Source: Candidatus Melainabacteria bacterium
GTDB lineage: Bacteria; Cyanobacteriota; Vampirovibrionia; Obscuribacterales; Obscuribacteraceae
Direction of reading: 5' to 3'
Assembly (NCBI GenBank): GCA_003963305.1
Contig: RXJR01000031.1
Location: 62,001 to 126,000 of the forward strand
Length of the DNA stretch: 64,000 nucleotides
The position numbers were made by a program, and so were the translations under genes. Each line of letters starts with the position of its first letter. Positions within the stretch are counted from its first letter, which is position 1. The notes under the pieces were generated by a model. The model saw nothing but the letters and a program-made list of their open reading frames with translations. It was not told the origin of the DNA and ran no database searches. This document shows, one piece after another, positions 21,539 through 59,702 of this stretch.

Positions 21539-21573
21539 CCTTACTCCGTGCTGCCTCATCTAAAAATCTACCC

Positions 21574-21661
21574 CTTACAACTCGAATGTAATTAATTCCA
21601 TGCCTAGAGACTCCCATGGAACGACTTGTCAACAGCATCTCTTTAATTACATCGGAGTAAG
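21574..21661. repeat. 88-nt palindromic element, copy A
   Basis: Imperfect palindrome with ends CTTAC and GTAAG. The inner arms ATGTAATTAA and TTAATTACAT, and TTCCATG with CATGGAA, are complementary. The right arm read on the minus strand (21661-21645) is CTTACTCCGATGTAATT, identical over 17 nt to the left end of copy B at 59618. The left arm 21586-21603 matches copy B 59627-59644 in 17 of 18 positions. It has no open frame. Nearby are another hairpin (21665-21683, GCGGAT ... ATCCGC) and two more CTTACTCC words (21539, 21723). Confidence 0.75.
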
Positions 21662-59617: not shown

Positions 59618-59702
59618 CTTACTCCGATGTAATTGATTCCATGCGGCATGATGCCCACCAGTTGGCACTCGAGACGCATGTATTTAACTACCTTGAAGTA
59701 AG
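59618..59702. repeat. 85-nt palindromic element, copy B
   Basis: Left arm CTTACTCCGATGTAATTG + ATTCCATGC; right arm GCATGTATTTAACTACC + TTGAAGTAAG. The two arms are complementary at about 20 of 27 positions, and the ends are CTTAC/GTAAG as in copy A at 21574. Within it GGCATGATGCC is a further small palindrome. It lies in the 418-nt gap 59490-59907, which otherwise shows no gene; the CzcA-type gene starts 206 nt further on. Confidence 0.75.

Follow-up and report, generated by a model that had tools for sequence, protein, structure and literature searches.

A genome-specific family of dispersed intergenic palindromes in a melainabacterial genome and its counterpart in a congener

Introduction

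REPINs are doublets of REP sequences that form hairpins; compensatory changes are common in them, and their singlets are remnants that are less well conserved (Bertels and Rainey, 2011, PMC3116915). Repeats tagged with CGTC are palindromic, occur mostly as inverted dimers that are often heterodimers, and have no known dedicated transposase (PMC3733652). Here we describe a family of palindromes that resembles both. Like REPINs, its members have conserved short inverted ends around a less conserved spacer, are of similar total size, lie outside genes, have a genome-specific sequence and occur as singlets and doublets. Unlike REPINs, they have no RAYT link, no GTAG/GGAG tag and no compensatory changes, the half-site forms no hairpin and solo halves are not more decayed. 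With the CGTC repeats they share the short palindromic form, the predominance of inverted (hetero)dimers and the absence of a dedicated transposase, but they lack both the CGTC tag and a stem-loop in each unit, and their 26-bp half-site contains a variable N6. Bacterial MITEs are likewise short, non-coding, bounded by inverted ends and dispersed between genes; unlike these, the palindromes show no target duplication, and the arm matches of the source genome, a draft, included no parent insertion sequence.

In integron attC and Xer-type sites, an outer box, a variable 6-nt spacer and an inner box are repeated in inverted orientation, and the spacers of the two arms often mismatch. The half-sites described here are similar in box-spacer-box layout and in their mismatching spacers. 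Unlike attC, their outer box is GTAAG(G) or a near variant rather than GTTRRRY, so that the R' core (GTTRRRY / RYYYAAC) is lacking, and there is no cassette array or integrase among the genes immediately flanking the elements.

Results

Two palindromes in the window and their relatives in the source genome

The window is a 64,000-nt stretch (C31:62001-126000) of the source genome (G000), a 7.48-Mb draft of 44 contigs. It contains two intergenic palindromes, copies A and B, both of which start with CTTAC and end with GTAAG:

59618-59702, plus strand: copy B, complete at 85 bp (family-model score 94.6 bits; 73-82% identical to other copies)
59618-59643, plus strand: left half-site of copy B, CTTACTCCGATGTAATTGATTCCATG
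59644-59676, no strand assigned: centre of copy B, family core GATGCCCACCAGTTGGCACTC, an imperfect inner palindrome
59677-59702, minus strand: right half-site of copy B, CTTACTTCAAGGTAGTTAAATACATG, read on the minus strand
21574-21661, plus strand: copy A, decayed 88-bp member (E 2.1e-4, 36 bits)
21574-21602, plus strand: left half-site of copy A, CTTACAACTCGAATGTAATTAATTCCATG
21636-21661, minus strand: right half-site of copy A, CTTACTCCGATGTAATTAAAGAGATG, read on the minus strand
21540-21573, plus strand: unit flanking copy A, CTTACTCCGTGCTGCCTCATCTAAAAATCTACCC, kin of 33-36-bp tandem repeats before the C9:155k and C24:140k copies

The 16-mer TTACTCCGATGTAATT occurs exactly at 59619-59634 (plus strand) and 21645-21660 (minus strand), and becomes a 17-mer when the leading C is added; the word ATGTAATTxATTCCATGC agrees at 17 of 18 positions between the copies. 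When three mismatches are allowed, TTACTCCGATGTAATT has a mean of 0.41 matches in the shuffled window. Both the coordinates and the shared words that the initial annotation gave for this pair are therefore borne out, and the genome search that it proposed returned further copies, so that the lack of other copies in the genome, which it named among the refuting outcomes, did not occur. Across the source genome TTACTCCGATGTAATT has six exact matches (none for a reversed control pattern), and a two-arm pattern found 10 sites (again none for the control). A covariance model built on ten copies retrieved 12 at E < 0.001. A thirteenth, at C13:933-1012, scores weakly (E = 4.5), with the arm and the centre core both present by eye. 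All 13 copies are intergenic. Copy B is a typical member, and copy A is a decayed one, the most diverged of the 12 (36 bits, compared to 79-102 for the ten typical copies); a 3-nt insertion alters its outer left arm and its diverged centre cannot be aligned to the family core.

Homology between the loci ends at the element boundaries (BLASTN), and the copies at C31:256k and C34:24k are 96% alike despite lying on different contigs with unrelated flanks. The neighbouring genes are ordinary and functionally unrelated (SepF, Bax inhibitor/MutM, GroEL, acetyl-CoA hydrolase, hydrogenase small subunit, beta-eliminating lyase, AcrB and others). The element thus disperses as a whole unit. Solo arms are also present, at C8:181695, C18:22596 and C42:12659. 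We considered these as ends of a long autonomous element, and rejected the idea: there was no second end among the arm matches and no transposase was recognised by eye in the nearby ORFs.

The half-site is the conserved feature

A typical element of the source genome is 85 bp long. A 26-bp half-site, CTTAC-N6-GTAATTAATT-NN-ATG, stands at either end in opposite orientation, and the roughly 33 bp between the two contain the same core as copy B. Each half-site holds a TTAC-N6-GTAA dyad. Positions 7-9 and 11 are strongly variable, while the boxes on either side hardly vary. Most elements are heterodimers: position 11 is usually G in one arm and T in the other, and position 22 is often A in one and C in the other. 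In copy B and the C11:199k copy each arm type stands on the other side of the centre, suggesting that the arms were exchanged or a segment inverted; the centre itself is quasi-palindromic.

The element strand folds better than shuffled sequence (z about -3 to -10.6), as expected of any inverted repeat, and single half-sites show no such advantage (z from +0.78 to -0.84). The check for compensatory changes called for by the initial annotation was negative, pair counts giving fewer than in shuffles. Arms within an element match each other no better than randomly re-paired arms (P = 0.97 for the source genome; P = 0.34 for the congener described below), and mismatches at pairs 11/75 and 22/64 are kept in nine of ten copies. 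What is conserved is the half-site, not the pairing.

A congener carries a family on the same plan

Sequence searches, at the settings used, did not find the source-genome element in 49 other genomes of the family, and viral contigs gave no match. A pattern scan of GTDB produced a single hit, on an AT-rich Aquimarina contig, which we judged to be chance because only the searched positions agree. In one congener (G001), the gap orthologous to that between BaxI and mutM also contains a palindrome, but one of another sequence: 65 bp long and nearly perfect, CTTACAGAAATGTGCTTAATTTGATG...ATCAAATTAAGCACATTTTTGTAAG, it lies about as far from the mutM stop as the source-genome element does (23 versus 26 bp). 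The palindrome family of this genome has 18 sites by BLAST and at least 25 after local scans, arranged as inverted pairs or solo halves; nine lie in 387 kb of two contigs, and rough extrapolation from these contigs, which were chosen for their matches, gives about 100-150 genome-wide. The two families share spacing and skeleton, CTTAC-N6-GT-NN-TTAATT-NN-ATGC, in genome-specific spelling, the congener's half-site being CTTAC-N6-GTGCTTAATTTGATG. In its 387 kb the skeleton has seven matches with zero mismatches, and shuffles have none below three. Positions 12-25 are nearly invariant, with variation mainly at N6, and in the scanned contigs conservation is equal in solo and paired half-sites. By crude ORF calls, seven of the 11 doublets have convergent genes on their two sides, and divergent gene pairs flank none of them. 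The palindromes of the source genome are a genuine dispersed family, specific to that genome, and have a congeneric counterpart built on the same plan. In a second congener (G002), a de novo hairpin search of 330 kb found no such family in that sample.

A second half-site type, CTTACRAGCGGGTGCTTAAATTGATG, occurs in the first congener (L174 4956-5049; L175 5023-5174; C41:232325; C2:86328), and degenerate relatives sometimes lie in direct orientation downstream of the main type. Upstream of one of its palindromes (L131 5800-5940) are a hairpin resembling an intrinsic terminator, GGGAGGGCAAATGCCCTCCCTTTTT, and a direct repeat of AGCAGTCCGATATCGCTCCGCGTTTT.

Occupancy was compared in blocks syntenic between the source genome and the first congener. 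One of the two testable source-genome sites is shared (BaxI-mutM). C34:24032 has no counterpart in the congener, nor do the congener's C2:48730 and C41:68529 in the source genome; upstream of copy A synteny is broken. The comparison with empty sites suggested by the initial annotation gave sites occupied in one congener only; the empty counterparts are defined less than base-exactly because the intergenic DNA is too diverged. By rough estimate, given about 100 gaps and five congener sites in the blocks, a single shared site is only mildly surprising, and could reflect either independent insertion or ancestral retention with homogenisation.

Search for a mobilising enzyme

One Y1 transposase was found in the source genome, at C24:63319; it is RAYT-like by sequence and bracketed by GGAGCGCACGCGTCCCGCGTGC repeats, which are GGAG-tagged REPs. 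The protein is about 206 aa (L113 9683-10560, C24 ~63 kb) and the bracketing REPs are in tandem, inverted orientation. GGAG REPs akin to these are also present on C34 (23854, 77156-77236); C11 and C31 gave none over 352 kb. We ruled this RAYT out as the mobiliser since its flanking REPs differ from the palindrome family and are unrelated to it. No gene mobilising the palindromes was found in the source genome. Among the arm matches there was no longer element with the same ends, in a 44-contig draft from which a parent could be missed. No target-site duplication was found at the elements (P = 0.27 and 0.29).

Set against the definition of REPs, the palindromes occupy many extragenic sites and form inverted doublets with conserved ends and a variable spacer. 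Their ends are CTTAC/GTAAG(GCC) rather than GTAG/GGAG or CGTC (GGAG appears incidentally, in CCGATG arms), and the unit hairpin, the flanking of the source genome's Y1_Tnp gene and the compensatory changes are all lacking. The palindromes therefore do not qualify as REPs, for want of the tag, the unit hairpin and the RAYT link, or as MITEs, for want of a target duplication; the reading that survives is that they work like REPINs.

Discussion

The palindromes are most likely non-autonomous, mobile-type DNA with a putative mobiliser, and we regard a REPIN-like, genus-level family of dispersed repeats, moved in trans, as the probable explanation. Two inverted half-sites (CTTAC-N6-GT-NN-TTAATT-NN-ATG) would form a single unit, mostly 62-95 bp, that is copied into intergenic DNA, probably by an enzyme that acts in trans and recognises a hairpin or the termini, and the inserted copies would then decay. 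The enzyme, which we infer to drive mobility, would read CTTAC and GT..TTAATT..ATG and tolerate the variable N6. Against this reading stand the missing mobilising gene, target duplication and compensatory changes, the unrelated repeats around the one Y1 transposase found, empty sites that are not base-exact, and the solo halves of the congener, which are no more decayed than its pairs. The mobile REP/MITE-like palindrome of the initial annotation fits best among the three options that it raised: the copies are dispersed, intergenic, discrete at their 85-bp ends, present or absent between congeners, and found as inverted pairs and solo halves. They are not REPs by definition, however, nor demonstrated MITEs. 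The genome has a conventional RAYT/REP system, and the family adds to it a palindromic repeat that lacks the known tags and, it appears, a RAYT partner. Two congeners with a common skeleton but different sequences also offer a natural case for asking whether copying, or selection for a binding protein, keeps dispersed repeats alike within one genome.

The main alternative is that a dimeric DNA-binding protein, either a regulator or a chromosome-organising factor, uses each half-site as its operator, and that sites and protein co-evolve in each species. The conserved unit is indeed the half-site, nearly invariant over much of its length in the congener and carrying a dyad in the source genome; the congener's solo half-sites are fully conserved, and pairing between arms is not under selection. 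Regulators, however, would leave unexplained why elements of the source genome are copied as 85-bp units including the centre. Few sites are common to both congeners, the neighbouring genes have no common theme, and many sites lie at 3' ends rather than at promoters. We consider operators unlikely.

Somewhat less credible still is that an undescribed recombinase or single-strand nuclease has the half-site as its core site, recognising the boxes CTTAC and GT..TTAATT..ATG on either side of a free 6-nt core and using the inverted pair as a folded-strand substrate. If true, this would make the family a third kind of palindromic dispersed repeat, next to the GTAG and CGTC REPs, and one that keeps pace with its enzyme during species divergence. 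We give slightly less credence again to a MITE of a DDE-type insertion sequence, with 26-bp terminal inverted repeats around a short remnant. Size, inverted ends, dispersal and the absence of an ORF would suit it, as would two kinds of arm in opposite orientation, as in left and right IS ends; the absent target duplication, the failure to recover a longer element with these ends from the draft, and the frequency of solo ends in the congener argue against it.

An RNA hairpin (a 3'-end stabiliser, bidirectional terminator or small RNA) is very improbable: the element strand folds better than shuffles, and the convergent-gene placement of the congener's doublets could hint at a 3'-end role, but source-genome copies also sit in tandem and divergent gaps, solo half-sites have no stable fold, Rfam has no match for the window and ten loci, and arms without compensatory change leave the structured small RNA of the initial annotation unsupported. 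Promoter avoidance is common among such repeats.

Two further features adjoin source-genome sites. At C8:181.6-181.7 kb (L082 9935-10020) the solo half-site CTTACTCCGAGGTAATTAATT lies immediately next to an inverted repeat of unrelated sequence, GAATTCGCGAA...TTCGCGAATTC. Repeat units of 33-36 bp containing GCCTCATCTAAAATC precede copy A and the copies at C9:155k and C24:140k, with weak matches only elsewhere in the genome. These tandem units (GTTGCCTCATCTAAAATCTAACCCTTACAACC), which include CTTAC, stand directly before the palindromes (L070 9720-9820; L074 9880-10000; window 21540-21573), and unit and palindrome may be parts of a composite element.
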